Source of the DNA: a virus
Length of the DNA: 62,068 bases
IMG/VR virus record: IMGVR_UViG_3300017989_000122
Span: 1 to 62,068 of that record
Strand: one strand, 5' to 3'
This document shows positions 1-62,068 of this stretch, piece by piece. Both the position numbers and the translations under genes were made by a program. Every line of letters begins with the position of its first letter. Within the stretch, counting starts at the first letter, position 1. The notes beneath the pieces are model-generated. The model had not been told where the DNA came from. It worked only from the letters and a program-made list of their open reading frames with translations, and made no database searches.

Positions 1-280
1 CTTCCTCCTCGGCTTCCTCCTCGGCTTCCTCCTCTAGGAGTCCCATCTCGGTCAGGACTTCCTGAGTCGACTCCTCGAGTTCGTCGTCCGGCGTGAGCTC
101 CTTCACCAGTTCCTCGAGCTCCGCGTCGATTTCCTTCTCGGTCGACTTTTCGGGATTCTCGATTCCGTCCTCGATGCCCAGCACCTCGTAGAGGTCGTTC
201 AGGGCATCGACCTTCTCCTTCGGGACGGCGGCCTTCCTCTTCTTCGGGGCTGCCTTTTTCTTCGCGGTTTTCTTCGCCAT
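1..280 (-). CDS. Lys/Glu-rich protein, N-terminal part; gene crosses the contig ends
   Basis: The ATG at 280 is preceded by a good ribosome binding site (AAGGAGGG). The frame stays open to base 1. The first 20 residues are Lys/Ala rich (MAKKTAKKKAAPKKRK), then the chain becomes acidic and enters a Glu-Ala run. The last 34 bases of the window equal the first 34, and the frame at 62035-62068 is in phase, so this is most simply the 5' half of one 201-codon gene continued at 61709-62034. The joined product would have a basic N terminus, an acidic middle and a basic C-terminal part with a possible helix-turn-helix. A nucleoid- or DNA-associated protein is possible, but I recognise no family. The exact length of the acidic repeat is uncertain because it lies at the contig ends. 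Confidence 0.75.
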   Translation of the reverse strand, partial: MAKKTAKKKAAPKKRKAAVPKEKVDALNDLYEVLGIEDGIENPEKSTEKEIDAELEELVKELTPDDELEESTQEVLTEMGLLEEEAEEEAEEE

Positions 281-316
281 GGTCCGTTCCCTCCTTGTGG
301 GGGTTGGGGGTTGCTA

Positions 317-352
317 CATATATAGATACTGTATTGGCATCCACTTTGTCAC
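317..352 (-). promoter_or_regulatory. Candidate leftward promoter upstream of the junction gene
   Basis: Read on the minus strand, GTGACA (352-347) is followed after 18 bases by TATCTA within AGTATCTATATATG. This is close to a sigma-70 pattern and lies upstream of the ATG at 280. Related GTATCTA plus A/T elements occur before the genes at 52130 and 60032. Assignment is by pattern only. Confidence 0.4.
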
Positions 353-975
353 CGCAGTCCCAGTAATTTATGGACTTGGGCGGACAATCGCCAGCCGGGC
401 CGTGCATATATCAAGTCCAGGCAGCGCCGGACATTCATCTTACCATTACTGTCAAGTGGTTGGATGAACTTGGACGCGCCTGGGAACTCCGCGTCGAACT
501 TGTCCAGTACTCCGGTTTTTATCCAAGGGGCGGCAACGAGTTTGATTTCGTTGATACAGATTGTGCGGAACGCCGGATGGATGGGTGCATTTTCCTTTGG
601 ACTGATTGTAATCCACACGTTGCTCAATGCTCCCTCATCAATCAACCGGGTCGGGTCGACTGTCCCGTTCGTTTCGATGCACACCCATCCGTTGAATCGC
701 TGCAGTGTGACCAGTAAGGGGGAGCACAACTGGAGGAATGGCTCACCGCCGGTGAGGACAATTAGGCACCCCTCACGATTGTGTGGCAGTAGTGCACTCA
801 CTTCCTCGATGATTCGGATGCCGGTCATGTGCTGGCGTGCGGCGTGGTCGGTATCACACCAATCACAGTTGAGGTTACATCCGGCGAACCGGACGAACAC
901 GGCCAGCCGGCCAGCCCGCTCGCCTTCGCCCTGTATCGAGCGGAAGACTTCATTGATGGTATAGGTCTTGCTCAT
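349..975 (-). CDS. queE: 7-carboxy-7-deazaguanine synthase (QueE)
   Basis: Radical-SAM enzyme that converts 6-carboxytetrahydropterin to 7-carboxy-7-deazaguanine, the third step from GTP to preQ0. From the chosen ATG, residues 33-40 hold the cluster-binding pattern CNLNCDWC (C-x3-C-x2-C), followed by DT as in QueE. The SIQGEG motif lies near residue 14 and a TGGEP-type SAM motif in the first half. Length (208 residues) is normal. I chose ATG 975 over an upstream start because it overlaps the queD stop as ATGA. It works with queD next door and with queC and folE at the other end of the window, which would be adjacent on a circular map. The product probably feeds the two DpdA-like enzymes at 58261-60032. 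Confidence 0.93.
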   Translation of the reverse strand: MSKTYTINEVFRSIQGEGERAGRLAVFVRFAGCNLNCDWCDTDHAARQHMTGIRIIEEVSALLPHNREGCLIVLTGGEPFLQLCSPLLVTLQRFNGWVCIETNGTVDPTRLIDEGALSNVWITISPKENAPIHPAFRTICINEIKLVAAPWIKTGVLDKFDAEFPGASKFIQPLDSNGKMNVRRCLDLIYARPGWRLSAQVHKLLGLR

Positions 976-1361
976 GGCCGGTACTCCGCCCAAGAGGTTT
1001 CGGTCTCCCATACCTTGACCGACTCGACCCAGACACTAGGACCGAGATGGTTGCGTGCGGCATACCAAAGATGCCTCGCCATGTGTTCGGCTGTCGGGTG
1101 CACGCCGAGCACAACTGTCTTGTTTTTAGCCGTCGGTGACGACTCCTTGACGATGATGGCATGGTCCCACTTCTCATGGATGGTTTCCCACCATCTCGAC
1201 AAGTGACAGAAGTCCAGGACCATATCATTGATTAGTTCCTCAGACTGCAACACCACCTCCACCTTGTACGAGTGGCCGTGGATGTTGCGGCAGCATTCGC
1301 TGTCAGCATTAGGCAGAAAGTGAGCGGCCTCGAACTTGAACGTCTTGCCAATGCGGTACAT
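972..1361 (-). CDS. queD: 6-carboxytetrahydropterin synthase (QueD)
   Basis: Converts dihydroneopterin triphosphate, made by FolE, into 6-carboxytetrahydropterin. The zinc histidines are visible as AAH near residue 14 and the HGHS motif near residue 28. The catalytic Cys lies four residues before the HGH. The family's DFxxL stretch and a C-terminal Glu in WETET are also present. ATG 1361 has an AGGAGGG ribosome binding site; a TTG two codons upstream is less likely. Its stop overlaps the queE start. About 130 residues is the usual length for QueD. Confidence 0.93.
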   Translation of the reverse strand: MYRIGKTFKFEAAHFLPNADSECCRNIHGHSYKVEVVLQSEELINDMVLDFCHLSRWWETIHEKWDHAIIVKESSPTAKNKTVVLGVHPTAEHMARHLWYAARNHLGPSVWVESVKVWETETSWAEYRP

Positions 1362-1419
1362 GGTCAATCCCTCCTCTTACTATAACTTCGTTTCATGCTC
1401 ACACCTTTCTTCACTGACT

Positions 1420-5411: not shown

Positions 5412-5737
5412 GTGAGTACGACCTTATTGTTGACCAACACCTCGGCCCACTTGCCTACTTTGACTTGGAACTTGCTCGGCATCCGTTTCCACGGAAAGTA
5501 TTTGTCCTTCTTCAGAATGTACTGACGGAACAGCAACAGCCGGAAGCGGACCATGACATTCCCGGCCATCTCCATGGTCGTCCGGTCGAGATGTGGGAAT
5601 ATGTGATAGCCGAAGTCGAGGGAGAGGTGGGGGAATCGTTTTCGCTGCCTCGTCCCCTCATCATCGATGGCGTCCAGCTCCTCCATCGATACGATGTTCG
5701 ACGGGATGGGCACCCCCTTGAACTTTGTCCTTCTCAT
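5408..5737 (-). CDS. Hypothetical protein, 109 residues
   Basis: I do not recognise this protein. ATG 5737 has a strong ribosome binding site (AGGAGGAGCCACC), so a longer upstream reading from 5806 is unlikely. The chain is soluble and basic at its C-terminal half. It is translationally coupled to the primase (ATGA overlap), so a role in priming or origin function is possible but unproven. Confidence 0.65.
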   Translation of the reverse strand: MRRTKFKGVPIPSNIVSMEELDAIDDEGTRQRKRFPHLSLDFGYHIFPHLDRTTMEMAGNVMVRFRLLLFRQYILKKDKYFPWKRMPSKFQVKVGKWAEVLVNNKVVLT

Positions 5738-5748
5738 GGTGGCTCCTC

Positions 5749-6243
5749 CTATGCGAAGGCGTATTTGAGTTCCTGGAAGGTTATACGGATGGTTTTCCTT
5801 GACCATCCCCTGTCCAGTAGTTGGCGTTTCAGTTTTCCTTTGGCACCCCAGGCGACCAACTCCCCTGGCGAGTCTAGCACCAATCCGACGACGAGGCGCG
5901 CCTCATTCGACAACCCCTCCACCTTTTCGTGGAACGATTGAAGGACATCCTCCTGGGTGGGGACGTAACGGAGTAGTTCGTCAACGCCATCCTTCGGAGG
6001 AGTCAGTCGATGATAGTGGCGGCAGAAGTTGGCGAGGCGGCTCTTGATGACCCGATTGGCATAGGGCGAAATGCCGATGCCCTTCCGCTTGTCCCAGCGA
6101 TGGCAGGCGCGGATGAAGGCCAGGCGGGCTTCCGCTTCCACTTCATCGAAGGGGACGCCGGTCGTGATATGCCAGCTGTTGGCCCTGGCTATAATGAGTG
6201 GCCTGTGCCGTTTGAGTTCGGCGGCAATTTGTCGCGATGTCAT
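5749..6243 (-). CDS. Sigma-factor-like protein (region 2-like)
   Basis: 164 residues with a good AAGGAG site. The segment EVEAEARLAFIRACHRWDKR followed by GISPYANRVIKSRLANF resembles sigma-70 region 2, where core RNA polymerase and the -10 element bind. The C-terminal SRKTIRITFQELKYAF could be a degenerate region 4 helix-turn-helix. It may redirect host polymerase to phage promoters, or may be a divergent DNA-binding protein. Such small sigma-like proteins occur in other phages, but activity is inferred only from pattern. Confidence 0.55.
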   Translation of the reverse strand: MTSRQIAAELKRHRPLIIARANSWHITTGVPFDEVEAEARLAFIRACHRWDKRKGIGISPYANRVIKSRLANFCRHYHRLTPPKDGVDELLRYVPTQEDVLQSFHEKVEGLSNEARLVVGLVLDSPGELVAWGAKGKLKRQLLDRGWSRKTIRITFQELKYAFA

Positions 6244-6256
6244 TTCCGGTGGCTCC

Positions 6257-6418
6257 TTACTTGAATAGATACATGGATAGGATGTAGATTACCCCAATGA
6301 GAATTGTCCACCATAAGAAATTGCGAACTATCTCGGCGGGGTTGACTGCATTCTTCTTCTCCTGCATAGCCACGCGGCGGTGCAGGTCCTGGATTTGTCG
6401 GGGCGTGTAGACTTTCAT
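6257..6418 (-). CDS. Small membrane protein, 53 residues
   Basis: A short real gene: ATG 6418 overlaps the upstream stop (ATGA) and follows a GAGGAG site. Residues 1-32 are polar and basic. Residues 34-52 are a single hydrophobic helix (FLWWTILIGVIYILSMYLF), so it is probably a tail-anchored inner-membrane protein with its N terminus in the cytoplasm. Function unknown. Confidence 0.65.
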   Translation of the reverse strand: MKVYTPRQIQDLHRRVAMQEKKNAVNPAEIVRNFLWWTILIGVIYILSMYLFK

Positions 6419-6690
6419 GTCGCACTCCTCTTGCTGAACTGCGGTGGCAGTGGCTCCTTCACTTTGGCATCGCTGTCGATGTAGGTTCCCTGGCTGGCGA
6501 GGTAGTCACGAAGGACATCCTCCAGTAGTCCGGCCACGGTCATGTTATGCCGCCGTGCGTGTGCCAGGAACTCCTGCTTGACGACTCGACGGAAACCGTG
6601 AATTGTCCACAAGGCGTTCTCTCCTTGCTGTGGTTTCCACTTCCTTTTTCCTATGCTGGTGTTCCTCGCTTGGCTCTTGGGCTGTGCCAT
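6415..6690 (-). CDS. Ribbon-helix-helix-like DNA-binding protein
   Basis: 91 residues. The middle reads WTIHGFRRVVKQEFLAHARR followed by MTVAGLLEDVLRDYL, which fits the strand-helix-helix layout of Arc/MetJ-type repressors. Strong AGAAAGGAGG ribosome binding site. It may be a small transcriptional regulator or a plasmid-partition-like protein. The family call is tentative because RHH sequences are short and divergent. Confidence 0.55.
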   Translation of the reverse strand: MAQPKSQARNTSIGKRKWKPQQGENALWTIHGFRRVVKQEFLAHARRHNMTVAGLLEDVLRDYLASQGTYIDSDAKVKEPLPPQFSKRSAT

Positions 6691-6704
6691 GTTGGGCCTC
6701 CTTT

Positions 6705-7076
6705 CTAAAAGGTTTTGTAGATGAAGAACTTGTTCCAGTGATACGCCACACCTTCTCCTCGTCCCATCATCTTGAGAAGGTCTACCAGTTGCTTCAGTGG
6801 ATGGATATCTGGTTTGACCTCGAAGATTTGTTGGATACGATAAAGCTTGGCGCGGCGGTTAGGGATGAGATGTGGTTCGGGAATGTGGATGTAGGCCAAC
6901 CTGCACTCCTTCTTTGCGAGGTTCAGTCCTTTCCACCCACTCTTTCGTTTCACCAGCCATATTATAGCACGGATGGTATCGGGATGCGAGGCCTGGTATT
7001 CGTATATGCGGCTTCCAACCGCAATACAAACCCAGGTTGCACCATAGCTCTCGATGAAAGGTTCAGGTCTACTCAT
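6705..7076 (-). CDS. Hypothetical protein, 123 residues
   Basis: I do not recognise this protein. It is coupled to the SNF2 helicase by an ATGA overlap and has a good AAGGAGG site. It is aromatic-rich and basic with no cysteine cluster. An accessory role to the helicase is possible only from position. Confidence 0.65.
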   Translation of the reverse strand: MSRPEPFIESYGATWVCIAVGSRIYEYQASHPDTIRAIIWLVKRKSGWKGLNLAKKECRLAYIHIPEPHLIPNRRAKLYRIQQIFEVKPDIHPLKQLVDLLKMMGRGEGVAYHWNKFFIYKTF

Positions 7077-9037
7077 CGTCCGTCCTCCTTCTGCTTGAGG
7101 TTATCGAGTAGTTCGACCAGCAGTGACTCATCTTGGATATCCTTCCCATCGAGGACCGATGCCAGGACCTGCCTCTTCTTGTCTAGCAGTGCGGCGATTT
7201 CCTCCTCCACACTGTCGGCCAATAGGATGTAGTATGCCGTGACGCTGTCGGCTTCCTGACCAATACGATGGATTCGGTCCTCCGCTTGGTCATGTTCGCC
7301 GGGAGTCCATCCCAGTTCCAGGAAGCAGGTTGCGTTCGCGGCGGTCAGCGTGATACCCACACCAGCCGCCTTGATGTTACCGATGAATAACCGCACCTTG
7401 GGATTCTTTTGGAACTGGTCGACCGCCTCCTGCCTCGCCTTCAATGGAGTGGAACCGTCGACGCGAACCGTCTCACCCGGGTAATCCGCCTCCAGTGCAT
7501 CCAGCGTGGCCTTGTGGGTGGCGAACACCACCAGCTTGCCACCGGTGGCATCCAAGGTATCCTGTATCCAGCCAAGGGCCTCGAACAACTTCGCCTTCAC
7601 GGCCAGTTGTTTCAATGCCTCCATCCTGGTCAGGGCCTCGGCTCGTTGGGCCGCCTCCAACTTCTCCGGGTCGACTTCCCCCAGCCATCCTAGGAAGTTC
7701 CGTTCGGCTATTCGGTAGTTCTCCATCATGGCCGAAGCCCCTTCCACGGGTACGACCACACGGACCTTCGGTGGCAGTTCCTTCAACACGTCCGCCTTCA
7801 GTCGCCGGAGCATCAGTCCCGAGCCGACCAGACTGGTATGCAGTTCATCGGTATGGCTCGCCCCACTGAAATCCCAGCCGAACCGATTGTGGCGTGCACC
7901 GCAATACCTCTGGGCGAACTTCCAGAATGATTTGTAGTTCACTCCGTCGATGAGGTTCAACGTGGTGAAGAATTCCACCGGCCTGTTTGTGATGGGAGTC
8001 CCAGATAGGGCAATGATGTTCTTGCATGACTTGGCCAGCCGCTGTGCTGCCTTGGTCCGCTTCGCCTTTTGATTCTTGATGTAGTGGCACTCATCCAGAA
8101 TCAGGGAGGGCGCCTTCACCTTAGTCAGTCGCGGTGCCCAATCATTTAAGATGTCGTAGTTGATGATGACCCAACCATCCTTCTTCACCGATGCCTTCTG
8201 GCCGTTGGGTCGTCCGTTGATGATGACGGCATGCTTGCCCGTCCATCGCTTGAGCTCCCGTGCCCAATTCAGTTTTAGTGACGCGGGACACACCACGATG
8301 GCTGGCAGTGCTTCGACCTGCTCTACGGCACCGATGGCCTGGATTGTTTTCCCAAGGCCCATCTCGTCGCCGAGCAGGCACCGGCAATCCTGTTTGACCA
8401 AGTGCCGGATACCGTCCTGCTGGAAGGGATAGGCGGCTTCAGCGATGGCCACGGGGAGTGGTGCCTTTGCTGCCACCTCGTTCTTGGCTCGGGCTTCATC
8501 GAGTGATGCCTTCAGCTCGACCATCTGTGGGTTGTGCTTCAGGTCGTCACCGAGGAAGTCGATTACCTTGTCAGCGATTCCTTTCTCGTAAGGGATTGCC
8601 CATGCTTTCCTTTCCTTGTCCCACCGGCGACCCGGGATGGTCTTGACTTTCTCCACCAGCTTCGGGTCGTAAGGGAATCGGATGAGTATTTCCTCAGCAT
8701 GCTCCGTCAGCTCAGCTCGACGGACCGGTAAGGTGGTGGCTCTCGTCGTTTGCCTTCTCCTTCTGGTCGACTTCGGCGATGCCTTGAAATCAGCCAGCTG
8801 GCTCTTGGAATAAGTCCGCAGCATCCGCCTTGCCGCCTCCTCCTGCTTGATGGTGAGGTTACGGCCAGCGCGGATTTGTTTGGCCAGTGAGGACCCGAAG
8901 GCCGCGTCACGACCGTTCCATCCGGCCTTGTTCTTCCAGCGAGTCGAGTGGGCCACCCGCTCATCTTCGGTTTGCCTGGCATCCATGAATAGGATGGCCT
9001 GGCACACCTCCTCGATGCTTGCGGTATTGGGGTTCAT
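7073..9037 (-). CDS. SNF2-family helicase with HARP-like domain (SMARCAL1-like)
   Basis: 654 residues from ATG 9037. Residues about 116-165 resemble a HARP domain (FPYDPKLVEKVKTIPGRRWD, then a W..P segment), known from SMARCAL1 annealing helicases. The SNF2 core follows: Walker A LLGDEMGLGKT at 221-231, DECH at 315-318, SGTP motif III near 345, and a C-terminal helicase lobe ending with DQAEDRIHRIGQ (motif VI). Known HARP helicases rewind RPA-coated or forked DNA and remodel stalled forks. Here it may help recombination-dependent replication or fork reversal. The first 110 residues are basic and unassigned. Confidence 0.85.
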   Translation of the reverse strand: MNPNTASIEEVCQAILFMDARQTEDERVAHSTRWKNKAGWNGRDAAFGSSLAKQIRAGRNLTIKQEEAARRMLRTYSKSQLADFKASPKSTRRRRQTTRATTLPVRRAELTEHAEEILIRFPYDPKLVEKVKTIPGRRWDKERKAWAIPYEKGIADKVIDFLGDDLKHNPQMVELKASLDEARAKNEVAAKAPLPVAIAEAAYPFQQDGIRHLVKQDCRCLLGDEMGLGKTIQAIGAVEQVEALPAIVVCPASLKLNWARELKRWTGKHAVIINGRPNGQKASVKKDGWVIINYDILNDWAPRLTKVKAPSLILDECHYIKNQKAKRTKAAQRLAKSCKNIIALSGTPITNRPVEFFTTLNLIDGVNYKSFWKFAQRYCGARHNRFGWDFSGASHTDELHTSLVGSGLMLRRLKADVLKELPPKVRVVVPVEGASAMMENYRIAERNFLGWLGEVDPEKLEAAQRAEALTRMEALKQLAVKAKLFEALGWIQDTLDATGGKLVVFATHKATLDALEADYPGETVRVDGSTPLKARQEAVDQFQKNPKVRLFIGNIKAAGVGITLTAANATCFLELGWTPGEHDQAEDRIHRIGQEADSVTAYYILLADSVEEEIAALLDKKRQVLASVLDGKDIQDESLLVELLDNLKQKEDGR

Positions 9038-53977: not shown

Positions 53978-54470
53978 CGGTGTGCTCCTTTGGTTGCTTA
54001 TCCAGCGGGAATCGTGGGTCTATTCCCAAAGGGTTAAGTGGCCCAAATCTACATTCTTCACAACTGATATCCCCAGAAAATTCATGCTCGCAGTCATAGT
54101 CATAGCCATCGGTGGGGTTGCCGCAAGTATATCCCAGACAACGGGCAGGAGCGTCATGACCCCTCGGCGTGTCAGATTGCTCACACTCATCGGGTGGCTG
54201 GAAGTCGGGCGCGATGCGGTAGATACCTTCTGGACGTTCTGTTCTCTCGCAAAGCGAAAAATGTTTTACTGTCTTGCAATAAGATACCGTTTGACTGTGG
54301 CGTAGAACATCCACCTCTTCATCTGACAGAAACATTCTTGCTCTTTCATTCTCCTTCAACCTCTCGCAGATTTCCCTGCGCTCCGGCGTCCACCATGATG
54401 CAGGTTTCATTCCGTCTCTCCTTTTAATAAGCATGGCATCCGTTCTCGGCGTATCGCTATCGCTCATCAT
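53970..54470 (-). CDS. Cys-containing hypothetical protein, 166 residues
   Basis: Start ATG 54470 overlaps the polymerase stop; the ATG three bases on is equally possible. N-terminal half polar and helical. C-terminal half has CLGYTCGNPTDGYDYDCEHE and CEECRF, probably metal binding. Similar early segments (DTPRTDAML) are common in phage small proteins. Function unknown. Confidence 0.6.
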   Translation of the reverse strand: MMSDSDTPRTDAMLIKRRDGMKPASWWTPERREICERLKENERARMFLSDEEVDVLRHSQTVSYCKTVKHFSLCERTERPEGIYRIAPDFQPPDECEQSDTPRGHDAPARCLGYTCGNPTDGYDYDCEHEFSGDISCEECRFGPLNPLGIDPRFPLDKQPKEHTDA

Positions 54471-55828
54471 CCTCCCTCCATACTGAATTTCTCTTTCGCG
54501 TGCCAAGATTCTCCCGGCGGTGACAGCTCGACTTCGATTTCCAGTGGTGTAATAATCCACGACCATGCCTTACGGATGTCCTCGGTCATCACCTGTTCCA
54601 ATATTCCAACAATTTCTGGTATGTGCCTCGGTCGCACGTCCATCACGATTGAGTCATGGATTTGCCCGACGATGCAACGCGGTAGGCCCCTCGACCTCAG
54701 TCCAGCATGGATGTGAATCAGCGACCAGAGCAAGCAATGGAACGCCGCCCCCTGCACCGGGTAGTTGATACAGTCATTCCTGCTCATCAGATTGGAACAA
54801 CGAAACCCGGTTTTGCCTTCGATGAACCCCCGCTTCAAATATTGGGCGTACCAGTCCCGCCTCCATTGGTCATATACCCTGAACCGCCGCCAGAAGTTGG
54901 CTTCAACTTTTGCAATATGCTTTGTGAAGTCTATCAGGTTCCTAATTCCTTTTTTCATCAAGTGCTTCTTCAATGGGACTCCACTTTTGCTTTTCAAGTC
55001 CATCAACTCAATCGCGTTCCATAGTTCCGGTGCACAATCTTCGTAGTACGAACCATAGAACTGTGGGAATACAAACTTATTCTTACCACAGTATCGGATG
55101 TCGGAAGTCATTTCCTCCAATGGAAGGATGTAGCAGTTCGCCGCCTCATCACGATGTAAGTCCTTCGTCGGGTCCTTAATGTAATCCAGCATCAACGGGT
55201 CATGGTGATAGCAAGTCGCTACACGCACTTCGGCTCCATCGTAGTCGCTTTCGAGGAATTGCCGCCCTTTACGTGGGATGAAACATCGCCGGATGGTGCG
55301 CCCCTGTTCCTTGTCACGGATGGGCATGTTCTGGAAACTCGGATTGCTGGCCGATGACCGATACGTGCGGACAAAGTTCAGGGGAAAGTGTGGATGGATG
55401 AATCCGTCGACCATCTCCCGTTCGATTTGTACCAGGTACTGGATTGACTTCTGATGCTTCCGCATCTTGAGTAGGTCGGCGAGGAAGGGAACCTCCTTGG
55501 CCAGCACTTGCAAGCTGGCGGCGTCGACTCTCGGATTGCCTTTCTTCGTATGGTCGACCGGCTTCACACCCAGTTCCTTGAATAGAATCACAGTCAACTG
55601 TGGACCGGAGTCCAGATTCATGTCATCGCCGTATCGCTTCTTCCACTTATGTACACCCTTACTGGCCATCACTTCCCTGCGTGCCCTGTGCATCTTCCGG
55701 CGCGTCCTACGTAGTTGCGTTTGGAGGTATTCTTCGTCAATACGGATACCGAAGTTACTTACATCGGATAATGTCCGTACCCCTTGCAACATGAAATGAT
55801 TGAAGTCGGATAGTCGACTATGCTTCAT
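54467..55828 (-). CDS. DNA polymerase, family A, polymerase domain only
   Basis: 453 residues. Motif A has D195 in LESDYDGAEVRV, motif B spans about 245-259 (RYCGKNKFVFPQFYG) and motif C is QIHDS with H391-D392. The thumb is residues 1-130. There is no exonuclease domain; that lies in the upstream gene, coupled by ATGA. Copies the phage genome with the clamp and loader nearby. The Lys-Asn-x-Phe motif B form is common in phage UDG-polymerases. The preQ0-type base must be tolerated in the template if modified DNA is copied. Confidence 0.9.
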   Translation of the reverse strand: MKHSRLSDFNHFMLQGVRTLSDVSNFGIRIDEEYLQTQLRRTRRKMHRARREVMASKGVHKWKKRYGDDMNLDSGPQLTVILFKELGVKPVDHTKKGNPRVDAASLQVLAKEVPFLADLLKMRKHQKSIQYLVQIEREMVDGFIHPHFPLNFVRTYRSSASNPSFQNMPIRDKEQGRTIRRCFIPRKGRQFLESDYDGAEVRVATCYHHDPLMLDYIKDPTKDLHRDEAANCYILPLEEMTSDIRYCGKNKFVFPQFYGSYYEDCAPELWNAIELMDLKSKSGVPLKKHLMKKGIRNLIDFTKHIAKVEANFWRRFRVYDQWRRDWYAQYLKRGFIEGKTGFRCSNLMSRNDCINYPVQGAAFHCLLWSLIHIHAGLRSRGLPRCIVGQIHDSIVMDVRPRHIPEIVGILEQVMTEDIRKAWSWIITPLEIEVELSPPGESWHAKEKFSMEGG

Positions 55829-57066
55829 CGTTCCAACTCCCTCATTTGTGCATAAGCCAGGCGATGTTCCAACAACGCATCCATACCACAGTAAAGCAGT
55901 AGGTCGTCCATCGGTGCCTTGTCGATGGTATTAAAGGCGTTCGCCCCATCCTCCTTGCTTTCCAGAAACTTTGCCACACTTTTGTTGTAGTCGAAGATTC
56001 CCCATCGTCTAGCCGCCTGGAACTTGACTGATGTAATATTCGGTCGATTATCCAGGATGTGTGCCGCGAGAACAGTATCCCATATCCAGTTCCTTGGCTC
56101 GACGCCCAGGATGACTCGTGACCACTCATTCTCAAACGCGATATTGGCTGCAATCTTTTCGATGTCAGGATTTGCCATCAGTCGGGCAACTGTTTTTTGA
56201 ACGCGGCCGTCATTCATTGGGAAGGCCCACGCACCATCGACCGATGGACTGACGGCACAGGTTACAATGCGGTGGCCCTCCGCGTGGGGTTTGATGCCGG
56301 TCGTTTCGTAGTCAATGGTAATTCGGTCGCCGGCTTTGATACTACGAAGGCACTCGATGATTTCCCGTGGTTCCATCAGTCGCTTGATACAATCCTGTGC
56401 CACTATCATCTTCGGCAACTGTGATTTCTGTTTTGCCAGCCGCGCCACCAGCTTGATATCATCCTGGACTTGTAGGGTTGCCGGGTCGGTGGTCTTGCCA
56501 CGCCGTAGGAGGAACGCCGGATGGTAGGTGGCAACGAACCAACATCCCCGCTCATAGTCTGGAACCGCATAGCCGCGCCAGCGACTGATGCCTCCCAGTT
56601 CCTTACGCCAGCGGCCATCCATCCAGGCGGTCAACGCGACATTGCCGACCAGCAGTACGACCCGGGGTTTTAGTTCTTGGACTTCGCGCAACCAAAACTC
56701 CTTACAGGTTTTGATTTCCCGTCCGGTCGGCGTCCGATTGTTAGGCGGACGGCAGCGGATGGCATTGGTGCGCCAGCAGTCCATATCCATATTGAGGCCG
56801 GCTCGCCTCATCATCTGCCGAAGGAGGGCCCCAGAACCGCCCACCAAGGGCACCCCCTGGGCATCCTCGGCAGAACCCGGGGCTTCGGCCATGATGAGCA
56901 GTCGATGCCGTCCTTTGCCGTAGTGAGGCATCTTCGGCGAGTGGCATCCGGTCAAGAGTGTGCATGACTCGCCGCAGGTCAGGCGAGCCGCCCGTGGCGT
57001 CCTGGCCTTCCTCGTCCCGGTGCGCCGCTTGGCCTTTTTCGGGAGTTTGAAGAATCCGGTTCCCAT
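55825..57066 (-). CDS. Uracil-DNA glycosylase fused to 3'-5' exonuclease domain
   Basis: 413 residues. Residues about 25-210 are a family-4-type UDG: cysteines at 31, 35 and 41 plus later ones for a possible Fe-S cluster, AEAPG at 60-64, and the HPA motif at 182-184. Residues about 245-413 are a DnaQ-like exonuclease with D252-x-E254 (DYETTG) and a final YCGMDA motif. Known phages carry UDG-exo-pol in one chain; here the polymerase is a separate gene. UDG activity may remove uracil during replication or may be structural. Confidence 0.82.
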   Translation of the reverse strand: MGTGFFKLPKKAKRRTGTRKARTPRAARLTCGESCTLLTGCHSPKMPHYGKGRHRLLIMAEAPGSAEDAQGVPLVGGSGALLRQMMRRAGLNMDMDCWRTNAIRCRPPNNRTPTGREIKTCKEFWLREVQELKPRVVLLVGNVALTAWMDGRWRKELGGISRWRGYAVPDYERGCWFVATYHPAFLLRRGKTTDPATLQVQDDIKLVARLAKQKSQLPKMIVAQDCIKRLMEPREIIECLRSIKAGDRITIDYETTGIKPHAEGHRIVTCAVSPSVDGAWAFPMNDGRVQKTVARLMANPDIEKIAANIAFENEWSRVILGVEPRNWIWDTVLAAHILDNRPNITSVKFQAARRWGIFDYNKSVAKFLESKEDGANAFNTIDKAPMDDLLLYCGMDALLEHRLAYAQMRELER

Positions 57067-58091
57067 CACTCATCCTCATCCTTGAACAAACTGATTGCGT
57101 AGGTAGCATCGTCATGTTGGACGAGCATCCGGTCGGTACCGACGAGAACTTCGTTGCTCTTGTCCACAACCATCAGGAGGAGTTCGGGTTGTACTTGGAA
57201 TTGGAGGGTGTCCTTGAACCGCGTCCGTAACGTTTCCTCTACCCATCCTTTTTCGCTCTGTGCCCTGATGACAAGTTTGCCACCAGCGAACTTTACCAGT
57301 ACGCGTTCATCCTGTTTGAACTCGGCAATAGAAAATATCTTGGCCCGCTCGACTGATTGTAACAAGGTGGACGGGAATCTGACTTGCTTCATGTCCTTCG
57401 TACGTTTCAAGAACGGGGCAAGGTCAGGATACTTGTCATTCGTTTTCGTTTGTCGTGTCCCGATTCCTACCTTCTCTTCAGTGCGAAGGTGGAACCAACC
57501 ATCCTTGCCTACCATGTACTGTGTGACCGGATACTCAATCAGTTCTGATATGACATGTGCCGGGATGAGGAGTTCCTTACTGACCTTACCGCATGGCACG
57601 CGTACCATCTGGAACCCATCACAGGCCTCCACAAATGTTTCCTTGACGTGGACGGCCGTCAGTTCAGGCCGTGCCAAACTATTCGTCGCATACTGATAAC
57701 TGGTGGCCAGGCCTTCCACCAATCCCTTCGGCACTTTCTTCCAGGCACCTTTCAAGTTGATAAACTTGTCCACGGGCAACGTGACTTCTGCATCCATCCG
57801 CACACCTGCTTTGGTTCGTTTACCGCTGATGAGGAGTTCACCCTTCCCCATTTCCAGTTCGACCTCATCATCTTCCATTCTGTCAAGGAGTGTCAGCAGT
57901 TCTTCGGCTGGCACCGCGCCTTCCAGGCCCTTCGTTGGCAGTGGTGCCTGGACATAGAGCAGGTCGTTATAGGAGTGTACAAATCCCTTGCGGAATATAA
58001 ACGAACTGGATTGTTCGACGATTTCTTTCGATGCAAGTCCAGGTTGTACGATGGTCAGCATGCGCCACAATTGCTCCCGGTTGACTTTCAT
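57066..58091 (-). CDS. Sliding clamp (DnaN-like)
   Basis: 341 residues, GAAGGAGAAG leader. Repeated beta-alpha-beta clamp domains (ELLTLLDRMEDDEVELEMGK, later KFAGGKLVIRAQSEKGWVEE) as in bacterial beta clamps, though divergent. Ends KDEDE. It should tether the polymerase and is loaded by the gene at 52169. The start overlaps the preceding small gene. Confidence 0.8.
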   Translation of the reverse strand: MKVNREQLWRMLTIVQPGLASKEIVEQSSSFIFRKGFVHSYNDLLYVQAPLPTKGLEGAVPAEELLTLLDRMEDDEVELEMGKGELLISGKRTKAGVRMDAEVTLPVDKFINLKGAWKKVPKGLVEGLATSYQYATNSLARPELTAVHVKETFVEACDGFQMVRVPCGKVSKELLIPAHVISELIEYPVTQYMVGKDGWFHLRTEEKVGIGTRQTKTNDKYPDLAPFLKRTKDMKQVRFPSTLLQSVERAKIFSIAEFKQDERVLVKFAGGKLVIRAQSEKGWVEETLRTRFKDTLQFQVQPELLLMVVDKSNEVLVGTDRMLVQHDDATYAISLFKDEDE

Positions 58092-58264
58092 TTCTCCTTC
58101 TCCTTCTTGAATCGTTTGTTAATCCCGGTTCGGATATACGTGGGGAGGATGGAACTTTTGTCCTTGATATGCCAGTAACTCAGTAGCCGGTGGCGGTACT
58201 TGGTATGAGTCAGTACCTGCCCCTGCCGCGGTTCTTCCAACCATGTAGCCAGGTAAATCTTCAC
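58088..58264 (-). CDS. Small basic protein coupled to DpdA, 58 residues
   Basis: Starts with GTG at 58264, which overlaps the stop of the first DpdA-like gene (GTGA), and ends overlapping the clamp start (ATGA). Reads KIYLATWLEEPRQGQVLTHT then LLSYWHIKD, ending in Lys/Glu repeats. A strong beta start and basic end suggest a small nucleic-acid-linked factor. Coupling to DpdA suggests a partner role. Confidence 0.7.
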   Translation of the reverse strand: MKIYLATWLEEPRQGQVLTHTKYRHRLLSYWHIKDKSSILPTYIRTGINKRFKKEKEK

Positions 58265-59112
58265 AGTGCAAAACCAGTCCTTCCTTTGGATGGTGTATGC
58301 TCTTCCAGTTCCCGTTCGATTACGAACGCGTTGATTACAGTACGAAGGTAGGAAGCATCCTTCGTCGGCTCACTGATGTCCTTCCACTTGATGCTGCGGT
58401 CAGGGAACAACTCCTTGAGGCGCCTCTCTACTGCCTTGATTTGTGAGGGGGATACAACCGATGAGCCTTTGGAGTAGGACTTGATACCGGTCGAAACCCG
58501 CAACTGTCCCCACGGTGGTAGGACCAGGACGCCAACACGTCCGGCCCGTGCGGCAGTGGTGGAATCGACCGAATACCAGGGATACATCTTCGTGACGAGC
58601 ATATCGGTCATGCCGAAACCATGTACCTTGACTTTCGGATTGGTATCCGATAAAATCTTCCAGCATCGGTCATACCAGCGCCGCAAGTTTTCCCGGGTGC
58701 GTGCGACCGTCCTGCCGCCCAGGGCGATGTACTCGAATCGGTCGAGGTACCTATACCAGTACTCGATAGGTTCGCCGTAGTGAAAGCAGGGGATAGGCAT
58801 CAGCCCACGCTTGACCATCCTCAACTGATTCTTCCATGAGGCAGGGGCGTTACCGATGACATCCAAGTTGGCGTATGCCTCGAACTCATCACCGCGTTTA
58901 TGAAGGAAGGAAACATAATCATCCAGTTTGATTTCGTTGCCGGAATTGTAGGCGGAGAATGCACCAGAGTCCAGGAACATCCCACTGCAGTAGGATGGTA
59001 TCTCGTCCCACACCCTTACGGCGAATGACTGTAGTATCCTGACCTTCCGACCCATCAGTAGGGAGGCATAATCTTCGTTCATCTCGAACGCGGAGTGATA
59101 CACCTTCATCAT
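58261..59112 (-). CDS. DpdA-like DNA-guanine transglycosylase, copy 1
   Basis: 283 residues from ATG 59112. TIM-barrel TGT relative. Conserved elements: D48 in FLDSGAFSAY, D84 in YANLDVI, HGFG at 164-167 and D183 in WYSVDST. These Asp residues line the active site in the DpdA/TGT family, where an Asp attacks the base. The protein would exchange guanine in DNA for preQ0 or a relative. Sequence differs clearly from copy 2, so it is probably an old duplication, not a recent one. Confidence 0.82.
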   Translation of the reverse strand: MMKVYHSAFEMNEDYASLLMGRKVRILQSFAVRVWDEIPSYCSGMFLDSGAFSAYNSGNEIKLDDYVSFLHKRGDEFEAYANLDVIGNAPASWKNQLRMVKRGLMPIPCFHYGEPIEYWYRYLDRFEYIALGGRTVARTRENLRRWYDRCWKILSDTNPKVKVHGFGMTDMLVTKMYPWYSVDSTTAARAGRVGVLVLPPWGQLRVSTGIKSYSKGSSVVSPSQIKAVERRLKELFPDRSIKWKDISEPTKDASYLRTVINAFVIERELEEHTPSKGRTGFAL

Positions 59113-60032
59113 AACTTGAACCCCGTGGTGGATGCCTTGAACGGCCACGGCCAGGCAGGCATTTGGTTTTCCAGGTCCTTGAAGAATAGGATATTGATTT
59201 CGTCACGGAGCCAGTAGCAATTGCTGACACCGTCGACCAGTCGCCTTTCCACAACACGTTTGCCATCGACCGCCTTGCCGACCCATTGCTCGTCGGCCTT
59301 CAATTTGTAGCCCTTGCCTTCCTTGTGGAACTCCGACTTGCCCATCATCATCCCCTTCGACTTCAGGTAGGCCAGCAGTTGTTCCTGCTCATGCTCCGTC
59401 ATGTAAACGAAATGTTGTCGGCTACTTCCCTTGCGTTTGCGCCCTGCCGAACTGGATATGGTGATGACCCAGGCAGTTTCATTGTACACCCAATTCCCCT
59501 TACGAAATCGCGGGACATAGATTTGTCCCATCCGACTCGCCACGACCCAACTCGTCGAGTCAACCGAGTACCATGGATAGCGGAGCATGAGTTTCAATGT
59601 CGTCAGGCCAAAGCCATGTACCTTGACCTTGGGCATCCCGTCCTTGTCACAAATGTACTTGGTGAACAGGCGGTCGAGCGGGCGGCTCGAGTCACTCACC
59701 TTCAACCCGTCACTGGTCGCCTTCCTGACCATGCCGCCCATAGCGATGTAGTCATACTTGGACACGTACTCCTTCAGGAACTTGACCGGTTCGCCCAGAT
59801 GGTAGCAGGGGATGGGATGCAGTCCGGCCTTCTCCATCCGCTTCTGGTTACGGAGTGTTGCCTGTGGGTCGTTGATTACATCGAGGTTCGCGTACGCGGC
59901 GATGAGTCCTTCGTGCTCCTTGATGAACTCGATGTAGTCGTCAATGCTGACCTGAACGCCTTGCGTATACGCACTGAATGCTCCCGAGTCCAGGAACAAG
60001 TCAACCTTTGCCTTGGATGTTGTTCGTCGCAT
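59109..60032 (-). CDS. DpdA-like DNA-guanine transglycosylase, copy 2
   Basis: 307 residues. Same key residues: D15 in FLDSGAFSAY, D51 in YANLDVI, HGFG at 139-142 and D158 in WYSVDST. It has an insertion about 195-245 (basic, RKRKGSSRQHF) and a longer C terminus than copy 1. The 5' end lacks a strong ribosome binding site; the GGGTATCTAATAAT element precedes it. Both copies keep the catalytic set, so they may recognise different DNA sites or act as a heterodimer. Confidence 0.85.
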   Translation of the reverse strand: MRRTTSKAKVDLFLDSGAFSAYTQGVQVSIDDYIEFIKEHEGLIAAYANLDVINDPQATLRNQKRMEKAGLHPIPCYHLGEPVKFLKEYVSKYDYIAMGGMVRKATSDGLKVSDSSRPLDRLFTKYICDKDGMPKVKVHGFGLTTLKLMLRYPWYSVDSTSWVVASRMGQIYVPRFRKGNWVYNETAWVITISSSAGRKRKGSSRQHFVYMTEHEQEQLLAYLKSKGMMMGKSEFHKEGKGYKLKADEQWVGKAVDGKRVVERRLVDGVSNCYWLRDEINILFFKDLENQMPAWPWPFKASTTGFKL

Positions 60033-60050
60033 ATTATTAGATACCCGGTC
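60030..60050 (-). promoter_or_regulatory. AT-rich GGGTATCTAATAAT element before DpdA copy 2
   Basis: The minus strand reads GACCGGGTATCTAATAATAT directly before the start codon. It resembles the elements at 317-332 and 52149-52170. It may be a phage promoter -10 region or operator. Confidence 0.35.
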
Positions 60051-60070
60051 GTTTGCGGTGAAAGAAGTTC

Positions 60071-60958
60071 CTACCGGATTAAACCCATCAATTCTGCACG
60101 GGCTTCCGGTTTCTTGAGGAAGGCCCCACGCAGGCTACTCGTGACCATGACTGAATGTTGTTTCCCGATTCCTCGGCAGGTCATGCACAGGTGTTGCGCC
60201 TCCAAGACACAAGCCGCGCCCTTCGGCCTGAGGTGTTCCATCAGTGCCGCCGTCACCTGCTGACCGATGCGCTCCTGGATTTGTAGTCGCCGGGAAAAGA
60301 TTTCCAGTAGTCGAGCCAGCTTGGATATGCCCACGACCATCCCGCTGGGGATGTAGGCGATGTGCGCCTTGCCGGAGAAGGGAAGCATGTGATGTTCGCA
60401 CATGGAATAGAACTCGATGTCCTTCAGGAGGACCATCTCATCACAGGCGCCGTCGTAGAATGTCTTCAGGACGGAGGCGGGGTCCTGGTCATAGCCGGAG
60501 TACAACTCCTTCCATGACCGCACGATACGCTCGGGCGTTTCCAGTAGGCCTTCCCGGCGAGGATTCTCACCGATGTGTTCCAGGATACGGACGACCGGGT
60601 CGGTGGCGTCCTCATCAGCGAGGTGTTCCTCCCACGGGAACACGACCCAGCCGATGTCCTTGTCCCGCCCCGTCGTCTTGTCCACGGCGGCGACGAAGGG
60701 AACGTTAGGGAATTGCTTGCGGTAGTCATCGCGCGTCCTACCGGAGTCAATGATGTCATCAACGATTACATGGCATGGCAAGTGGGAAACGAACTGGTAA
60801 CAGTCAGGATAATTTTCAGCCATCACTGCCGCCAGTATCGTCCCACCACGCGGCACTCCATAAATGATAAGTGGACTAGAGTGGTTCTCCCGATACGGCC
60901 TGAGCTTCTCGTTCAGCCGCCCCCTGACATCCAAGTACGACAAATGGGTCCTTTTCAT
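60071..60958 (-). CDS. folE: Phosphoribosyltransferase-GTP cyclohydrolase I fusion
   Basis: 295 residues. Residues 1-120 form a PRTase fold with the PRPP-binding motif VIVDDIIDSGRT at 64-75. Residues about 125-295 are FolE: zinc C187 and H190 in MCEHHMLPF, C258 in QHLCMTC, and the QIQERIGQQV helix. FolE makes dihydroneopterin triphosphate for QueD. The PRTase could salvage or release a base, perhaps preQ0 or a purine, but its base specificity is not readable. Start overlaps the queC stop (ATGA). Confidence 0.88.
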   Translation of the reverse strand: MKRTHLSYLDVRGRLNEKLRPYRENHSSPLIIYGVPRGGTILAAVMAENYPDCYQFVSHLPCHVIVDDIIDSGRTRDDYRKQFPNVPFVAAVDKTTGRDKDIGWVVFPWEEHLADEDATDPVVRILEHIGENPRREGLLETPERIVRSWKELYSGYDQDPASVLKTFYDGACDEMVLLKDIEFYSMCEHHMLPFSGKAHIAYIPSGMVVGISKLARLLEIFSRRLQIQERIGQQVTAALMEHLRPKGAACVLEAQHLCMTCRGIGKQHSVMVTSSLRGAFLKKPEARAELMGLIR

Positions 60959-61632
60959 CAGTCCGCCTCCTCATACTTGACCGGGTCCTTCAACCCCAAG
61001 GACTCGAACGCATCCAACCGCTTGCGACAGGCACCACACTTCCCGCACGGCAGTCGCTGGTCCTTATAGCAGGTGCGTGTGAGTTCGTACGGGACTTCAC
61101 GAGCAATCCCATCCATCAGGATTCCTTTCTTGTTTGTGTAAACGAACGGAGCCTCCAAGGTGGTGGCTCTTCCCGTTCCTTCTTCAACCGCCAGCTTCAT
61201 CGCCTCGAAAAACGCGGGCGTCGTATCTGGGTATACTGTGATATCGCCAGGTGTTTGATGAAAACCAAACGCAATCGTATCCACCTCCATTGACTGTGCC
61301 AGCCCGGCCAGGATGGCGGCAAAGACTATGTTGCGTGCCGGTAGGTAGGTCTTGGTCATGGCCGGTTCCAGGAAGTGGCCTTCGGGAATCTCGCCCTGCC
61401 CATCTAGTAGGTTGGACTTGAAGCTGGTGAAGCAGGCGGAGATGTCATAGTGGCGTAGGTGTTGCCGTAGTCCGAAGTGGGCCAGTACGTCAAGCATCGC
61501 CTGCCGTTCCCACTTGTTGTTCTTGGCACCATACTGGAAGTGCACTGGAAAGACGTCACGGCCTTCATCCAGTGCCCAAGCAATCACAGCGGCCGAGTCC
61601 ATGCCGCCAGAAGTACTAACAATAGTTTTCAC
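60958..61632 (-). CDS. queC: 7-cyano-7-deazaguanine synthase (QueC)
   Basis: 224 residues from GTG 61632 (GGAGTG leader). PP-loop STSGGMDSA at 6-14 binds ATP; the C-terminal zinc site is CYKDQRLPCGKCGAC. Converts CDG plus ammonia to preQ0. No N-terminal or C-terminal amidotransferase (Gat) domain is present, so the likely base is preQ0, not the arcain-linked dG+ made via Gat-QueC. Confidence 0.93.
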   Translation of the reverse strand: MKTIVSTSGGMDSAAVIAWALDEGRDVFPVHFQYGAKNNKWERQAMLDVLAHFGLRQHLRHYDISACFTSFKSNLLDGQGEIPEGHFLEPAMTKTYLPARNIVFAAILAGLAQSMEVDTIAFGFHQTPGDITVYPDTTPAFFEAMKLAVEEGTGRATTLEAPFVYTNKKGILMDGIAREVPYELTRTCYKDQRLPCGKCGACRKRLDAFESLGLKDPVKYEEAD

Positions 61633-61708: not shown

Positions 61709-62068
61709 CTACTTCTTCTTCGCAATCGCCGGGAGTCCCTTGCCGTTGGCCCACCGGTTCATCCAGGACCGGATGGTCGACTCCTTGACTTTCTTGCCGA
61801 CCATCTTGTACAGCTTGGCGGCATCCGTCTCGCCCTTGCCCTTCTTCCAGGCCTTCCAGACCTGCGCCTTGGGGCACGACTCCAACGTCTTCCGGTCGCG
61901 CTTCGGTGGTGTGGGCTTGGACTTCTTCTCGGCGGCCTTCTTGCCATTGGACTTCTTCTCGGCGGCCTTCTTCGTGGTCTTCTTGGACTTCTTGGTGGCT
62001 TTCACTTCCTCTTCCTCCTCTTCTTCGGATTCCTCTTCCTCCTCGGCTTCCTCCTCGGCTTCCTCCTC
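61709..62068 (-). CDS. Lys/Glu-rich protein, C-terminal part; continues from 1-280
   Basis: Open from the window end: Glu/Ala run, then KATKKSKKTTKKAAEKKSNG, a Lys-rich stretch, and a C-terminal domain TLESCPKAQVWKAWKKGKGE then ESTIRSWMNRWANG that may be a helix-turn-helix. Read with 280-1 it makes one gene. An ATG at 62005 could start a short version, but there is no ribosome binding site in the repeat. DNA binding is likely. Confidence 0.72.
   Translation of the reverse strand, partial: EEEAEEEAEEEEESEEEEEEEVKATKKSKKTTKKAAEKKSNGKKAAEKKSKPTPPKRDRKTLESCPKAQVWKAWKKGKGETDAAKLYKMVGKKVKESTIRSWMNRWANGKGLPAIAKKK
62013..62068. repeat. Terminal repeat shared with window start and with the SSB gene
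   Basis: The last 34 bases (62035-62068) equal bases 1-34. The last 56 equal 50687-50742. The overlap supports a circular map, but the third copy means an assembly break at a repeat has to be excluded. Confidence 0.9.

Follow-up and report, generated by a model that had tools for sequence, protein, structure and literature searches.

The virus record IMGVR_UViG_3300017989_000122 of IMG/VR (positions 1 to 62,068; this whole stretch of 62,068 nucleotides is referred to here as the window) encodes on its minus strand the genes of a preQ0 pathway together with two adjacent DpdA-like transglycosylases, DpdA-A and DpdA-B, and an open reading frame (ORF) of 58 codons. The preferred reading, to which a probability of roughly 0.65 is assigned, is that DpdA here is a split enzyme, in which the DpdA-B body is completed in trans by a small, interchangeable N-terminal module, the 58-residue protein being one version of it. 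Neither a split DpdA nor a free-standing DpdA module was found in print in the open-licence literature. The three proteins concerned are as follows.

59109..60032, minus strand: DpdA-B, 307 residues, body-only DpdA (phrog_887, E 1.3e-54)
58261..59112, minus strand: DpdA-A, 283 residues, divergent DpdA with its own N-terminus (phrog_887, E 3.6e-53)
58088..58264, minus strand: free-standing DpdA N-terminal module, 58 residues, type T1, predicted to correspond to beta1-alpha1-beta2-alpha2 of the barrel (by homology to DpdA N-termini)

A DpdA body and the piece it lacks

Both DpdA-A and DpdA-B retain the LDSGAFS motif and the second aspartate (in YSVDST), which occupy invariant columns in an alignment of 57 rows. 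An earlier note on this DNA had proposed two adjacent DpdA-like genes with preserved active-site aspartates, and these motifs, together with the assignment of both proteins to phrog_887, agree with it. The residues invariant across the 57 rows, which include both proteins, are D58, H177, and D196 (numbering of the DpdA from relative L068), with the histidine lying within VHGFG. The aspartate pair is presumably the catalytic pair of tRNA-guanine transglycosylase (TGT), given the fold match described below and the known TGT motifs. The Pfam TGT family (PF01702) has no match in the record.

The same note had called both enzymes intact, which does not hold for DpdA-B. This protein begins 13 residues ahead of LDSGAFS, without the first two strand/helix units of the triosephosphate isomerase (TIM) barrel. 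It has no in-frame N-terminus: the open frame upstream bears no similarity to the start of a DpdA, and 38 bases separate the end of folE from dpdA-B. Aligned with the model of the L068 enzyme, DpdA-B does not hold a complete TGT-like TIM barrel in a single chain and, as judged from this comparison, is the body of a split DpdA, not a complete DpdA. In the tree, it falls within the module-associated clade, with L041 and L035 as its nearest relatives and 53% to L079.

On the evidence of profile comparisons, the 58-residue protein is homologous to exactly the N-terminal piece that DpdA-B lacks. The module hidden Markov model (HMM) was built from free-standing small ORFs alone, and its best match lies ahead of DSGA in 80 of 80 full-length DpdAs of the Queuovirinae type. 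The N-termini from a control set of 80 loci with this conventional DpdA score a median of 13.1 bits (range 2.4–21.2), and 68 of the 80 lie above the best of 800 shuffles (maximum 7.5 bits). With hhalign, the module profile matches the N-termini of 19 Queuovirinae-type DpdAs at a probability of 90.9% (E 1.1e-6), compared with 0.1 and 0.2% for two other DpdA segments of the same set, and a profile-profile comparison with the start of module-associated DpdAs gives 96.7% (E 3.8e-10). The 58-residue ORF of the window, itself among the seeds, matches the module HMM with an E of 6.7e-18 and shares the family traits of being a small ORF, adjacent to dpdA, and on the same strand.

Structure prediction is consistent with this assignment. 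The AlphaFold2 (AF2) model of full-length DpdA from L068 has a predicted local distance difference test (pLDDT) of 94.2 and a predicted template modelling score (pTM) of 0.90, and its first 50 residues form, ahead of the LDSG strand, a strand (2-6), a helix (17-24), a strand (27-31), and a helix (40-50). VIA aligns this model to TGT 5jt7 (Z 18.4, root-mean-square deviation 3.2, 248 residues; model 1..333 to TGT 40..366). Its alignment to 7ui4, a crystal structure of DpdA, has a Z of 17.8 (root-mean-square deviation 3.4, 266 residues). Foldseek alone placed other TIM barrels on top, with TGT not among the 50 matches listed, and it was VIA that re-ranked TGT first. The AF2 model of the isolated 58-residue protein, calculated from an alignment of 73 modules, has a pLDDT of 84.2 and contains short strands (5-6 and 26-27) and helices (12-20, 30-33, 37-46, and 50-57) in the same order of elements as the L068 N-terminus.

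The favoured mechanism comprises (i) synthesis of preQ0 via FolE, QueD, QueE, and QueC, with the DpdA transglycosylases putting it into phage DNA, (ii) a catalytic body, DpdA-B, that would provide units 3 to 8 of the barrel along with the two active-site aspartates, (iii) a 58-residue module that would supply units 1 and 2, likely by docking onto DpdA-B in trans to give a complete TGT-like barrel, and (iv) DpdA-A as a presumably active second, self-contained transglycosylase. One body can probably take alternative modules, because relatives keep several different modules beside one body. Since the substrate pocket of TGT is flanked by the ends of strands 1 and 2, which guanines, or which base, get exchanged could depend on the module chosen. 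Simple repeats within the module genes of some relatives might, in addition, turn modules on and off.

The most likely start of DpdA-A is the ATG at 59112, which overlaps the DpdA-B stop, and not an upstream GTG, and the N-terminus of DpdA-A scores weakly against the module profile (E 0.59). A recent tandem duplication of the two genes was considered but is not supported: DpdA-A is sister to DpdA-B in 4% of bootstrap trees, a value from a bootstrap that has not settled and for a protein on a long branch of unsure placement. Not being recent duplicates and each keeping the catalytic aspartates, the two proteins could be independent enzymes, or form a heterodimer as the paralogues of eukaryotic TGT do, with two target motifs and an unrelated 58-residue ORF nearby. 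This is quite improbable, however, as the 58-residue protein is demonstrably related to DpdA N-termini and DpdA-B is short of two of the eight barrel units.

Modules beside dpdA in related viruses

A search of viral contigs with the 58-residue protein returned 11 loci, all 11 with DpdA, and a search with the T1 profile returned 12 contigs, the twelfth of which (L061) also encodes DpdA (12/12 overall). In many of these loci, the pattern MKIYLA...RLLSY recurs in several small ORFs, and it also opens some DpdAs, which suggested that the small ORFs correspond to N-terminal pieces of DpdA in free form. The related set analysed here consists of the best 80 of 516 relatives by similarity to DpdA-B, plus L114 and the window. 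Five DpdA matches without the LDSG motif (the first copies in L065 and L114 as well as L107, L109, and L110) were set aside, and of 78 sequences, 65 were left after clustering at 80%, with L105 omitted from the trees. Setting aside L107, L109, and L110 leaves the pattern unchanged, because short N-termini and modules are found there too.

An iterated HMM search of 7,554 small ORFs from both strands of the related set yielded 200 matches at E<0.01, 187 of them at E<1e-3. All 200 are on the strand of dpdA, 184 of them no more than 1.5 kb away and 16 at a greater distance, and the opposite strand has none. Among 7,209 small ORFs in the 80 control loci, no match reached E<1e-3 and the best was 0.33; the two counts are not symmetrical, the HMM having been trained on the related set, and a homologous control family would have shown.

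Of 66 non-redundant related loci, 60 have free-standing modules next to dpdA, often several per locus. The modules add up to 156 ORFs, a number in which some frame-broken halves and some ORFs with an extended start are counted; 123 lie downstream of dpdA and 33 upstream. No cis module is present in 28 of the 66 non-redundant DpdAs, and every one of these 28 is accompanied by one or more trans modules, while the 38 DpdAs with a cis module include 32 that also have trans modules and 6 that have none (Fisher p 0.035). On a tree of the bodies only, 17 changes between the cis and body-only states are required, of which well-supported branches force at least 7, and the label is only slightly clustered (17 changes against a shuffled mean of 21).

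The frequent presence of trans modules next to DpdAs with their own N-terminus (32/38) would also fit a role outside the catalytic barrel, in which the modules, while retaining the fold of a barrel fragment, have a regulatory or adaptor function, for example as DpdA inhibitors or links to the sliding clamp. The gene order in most loci, with the modules standing between dpdA and the clamp gene (123/156 downstream, with the clamp at most 1.8 kb downstream of dpdA in 63/65 related loci), points the same way. Such a role is nonetheless rather unlikely, since it would leave the 28 DpdAs without strands 1 and 2 as incomplete barrels, and the repeated interchange of cis and trans forms also counts against it.

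The modules are under purifying selection, with a median dN/dS of 0.21 across module pairs and 57 of 59 unsaturated pairs below 0.5. This selection, the recurrence of type T1, that of the window, in 34 of 66 loci (a simple motif count), and the behaviour of body-only DpdAs, which keep every invariant residue and occur only with modules, make it highly improbable that the small ORFs are remnants, now in decay, of dpdA 5′ ends that had been duplicated and that the body-only DpdAs are degenerate. What such decay would account for are the eight frame-broken module ORFs in 65 loci, and repeats do promote duplication.

Queries of types T1 and T4, the two types tried, gave only chance matches (E 4 or worse) against 50,697 records of cultured phages, and in host genomes a single locus was found, L114, on a 6.3-kb contig, of either viral or host origin, from a Spirochaetes metagenome-assembled genome. 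L114 has a second, divergent dpdA at the contig edge (L114:3-1918) beside a modular dpdA and several modules, T1 included; the window likewise combines a divergent with a modular DpdA. In L065, a partial second DpdA without the LDSG motif (L065:2863-3411), possibly a remnant, lies upstream of the modular DpdA. The DpdAs of L107, L109, and L110 carry LD(S/C)GSPSLYN in place of LDSGAFS, followed by an extra insertion, with modules nearby in all three, and may represent a distinct DpdA subfamily.

Simple repeats and the possible exchange of modules

Module and cis-N-terminal DNA is rich in simple repeats. Its 37,352 bases contain 38 (AG)n, 11 poly-G, and 3 poly-C tracts (thresholds of at least 4 units for (AG)n and at least 7 bases for poly-G and poly-C), compared with 27, 9, and 0, respectively, in 692,459 bases of other DNA from the same loci and 9, 3, and 1 in 785,074 bases of the control loci. 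The enrichment of (AG)n in module DNA is 26-fold (p 3e-32). The coding of Arg-Glu was considered as the sole source of this enrichment and accounts for some of it, not all: the dipeptide is encoded as AGAGAG in 32 of 102 cases in modules and in 105 of 783 elsewhere (p 1.5e-5).

Orthologous tracts also differ in length among the related contigs L050, L051, L055, and L106, which are 82.8-90.1% identical in the stretch ~5500-7500. The observed lengths are 8, 9, and 7 bases for poly-C, 8, 9, and 8 for poly-G, and 11, 17, 17, and 19 for (GA)n; part of the homopolymer differences may be sequencing error in older metagenome assemblies, to which (GA)n is less prone. The C8 tract of L051 keeps its module in frame, the C9 tract of L055 breaks the frame, and a simple repeat is located at the break in six of the eight frame-broken modules. 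L050 and its relatives differ in module repertoire as well. By these features, the modules of the relatives look able to act as phase-variable, exchangeable cassettes.

A further step, and a tentative one with the odds somewhat against it, would be combinatorial and partly phase-variable modification, in which one body works with several modules, each with DNA contexts of its own for 7-deazaguanine or with its own choice of base. Repeats would switch the modules, and the population would mix modification patterns against restriction enzymes.

Several points weigh against the split-enzyme reading or its extension. DpdA-B might be dispensable in the presence of DpdA-A, a single module was found in the window, and the isolated 58-residue model has no PDB match in VIA (5 chains compared). 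The Fisher result is modest, because trans modules accompany most cis DpdAs as well. An internal start codon was considered as a sign of dual translation and rejected as evidence, because a body-start ATG is as common in the control loci (71/80) as in the cis forms (30/38). Finally, the window's own module contains no simple repeat of the kind that marks the candidate phase-variable loci of relatives, and the case for phase variation therefore does not extend to this phage.

The preQ0 locus and its precedents

The remaining genes of the locus are listed below.

60958..61632, minus strand: QueC without an amidotransferase domain (Pfam PF06508, E 9.7e-47, residues 2-212 of 224)
60071..60958, minus strand: FolE (GTP cyclohydrolase I) behind an N-terminal phosphoribosyltransferase (PRTase)-like domain (PF01227, E 2e-70, residues 122-294; phrog_8995 PRTase, E 7e-5)
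57066..58091, minus strand: sliding clamp, its gene overlapping that of the 58-residue module (phrog_947, E 5.8e-23)
972..1367, minus strand: QueD (Pfam PF01242 (PTPS), E 2.8e-31; NCBIfam TIGR03367, E 2.1e-25, slightly under its cut-off)
349..1011, minus strand: QueE radical SAM enzyme (NCBIfam TIGR04508, E 8.2e-35, under its curated cut-off; PF04055)
61709..62005, minus strand: C-terminal part of a Lys/Glu-rich ORF that continues over the joined contig ends (ends-joining check)

On the minus strand, positions 58088-61632 read queC, PRTase-like/folE, dpdA-B, dpdA-A, and the 58-codon ORF, followed by the sliding clamp, and start and stop codons overlap between DpdA-B and DpdA-A, between DpdA-A and the 58-residue ORF, and between the latter and the clamp. 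The record is probably a closed circle, and the genome circularly permuted and complete, because the contig ends are identical over 34 bases (1-34 = 62035-62068, inside a period-12 repeat) and the Lys/Glu-rich ORF, of ~200 residues, reads through the ends once they are joined. In a circular record, queD-queE would stand directly upstream of queC. The joined order, queD-queE-[Lys/Glu-rich]-queC-folE-dpdA-module-clamp, matches that of the relative L004, which has a similar Lys/Glu-rich ORF between queE and queC. The stretches fetched for 65 related loci contain FolE in 58, QueC in 42, QueD in 41, and QueE in 44.

The inventory of the earlier note fares well on the pathway. Its fused folE is borne out by a GTP cyclohydrolase domain behind the PRTase-like part, and queD and queE are present as it said, albeit at the other contig end and not within 58088-61632, where it had placed them. 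QueC is a single domain: as the note had it, the amidotransferase domain that goes with QueC in the dG+ pathway is missing from this protein, which stands alone at 224 residues, and GATase_6 has no match anywhere in the record. Because the record also contains no QueF above its cut-off, dPreQ0 is likely to be the modified base, in line with the note's preference for it over dG+. The linkage to preQ0 genes expected of a DpdA is found in this record.

The DpdAs of Queuovirinae and mycobacteriophages (9g, CAjan, and Rosebush; phrog_887) belong to the same enzyme family, have the same active-site motifs, and are encoded among the same neighbors as here (queE, queC, queD, folE, dpdA, sliding clamp, and DNA polymerase). 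These conventional enzymes, in contrast, are one chain with a built-in N-terminus, and all 80 control loci carry a single dpdA without a free-standing module. The paired arrangement with a 58-residue partner, described in the earlier note as less familiar, is so only in part. Genes 2 and 3 of Microbacterium phage Megan (cluster EC) are adjacent, overlapping dpdA genes next to a full preQ0 set, as here, and the dpdA pair is therefore not new. The Megan genes are sisters (100/99), unlike DpdA-A and DpdA-B, and thus stem from a separate duplication; Megan QueC is also long (455 residues). A paper on Nicole72 notes preQ0 genes in Megan and Nicole72 (PMC12352058). The 58-residue partner is unusual, in that its sequence places it in a family of free-standing DpdA N-terminal pieces.

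Transglycosylases made of two polypeptides, as proposed here, include the split archaeosine TGT of some archaea and the heterodimeric TGT of eukaryotes. In those enzymes, the cut falls between domains or two whole barrels pair, whereas here it would fall inside the barrel after the second unit, and the small part comes in several versions, unlike in either of them. Bacteria have phase-variable methyltransferases and HsdS specificity subunits, whose repeats or alternative specificity parts change DNA modification; the present system differs in chemistry and fold and occurs in phage genomes, with switching that would be analogous.

If the split-enzyme reading is correct, dozens of uncultured phages possess a transglycosylase cut within its catalytic barrel and supplied with a library of small replaceable parts, which are easily missed because they are ~50-70 residues long. 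DpdA genes that look truncated may then be complete in trans. Should the modules set specificity, they would offer a simple route to understanding the sites at which DpdA acts and the way it does so, and would account for the diversification of phage protection against restriction.

The PRTase-like domain ahead of FolE contains VIVDDIIDSGRT, and a similar motif is present in the FolE ORF of 27 of the 58 related loci with FolE; the domain perhaps serves purine salvage feeding GTP. Positions 54467-55828 encode a family A DNA polymerase, and 55825-57069 encode a separate protein in which a family-4 uracil-DNA glycosylase is fused to a 3′-5′ exonuclease domain.

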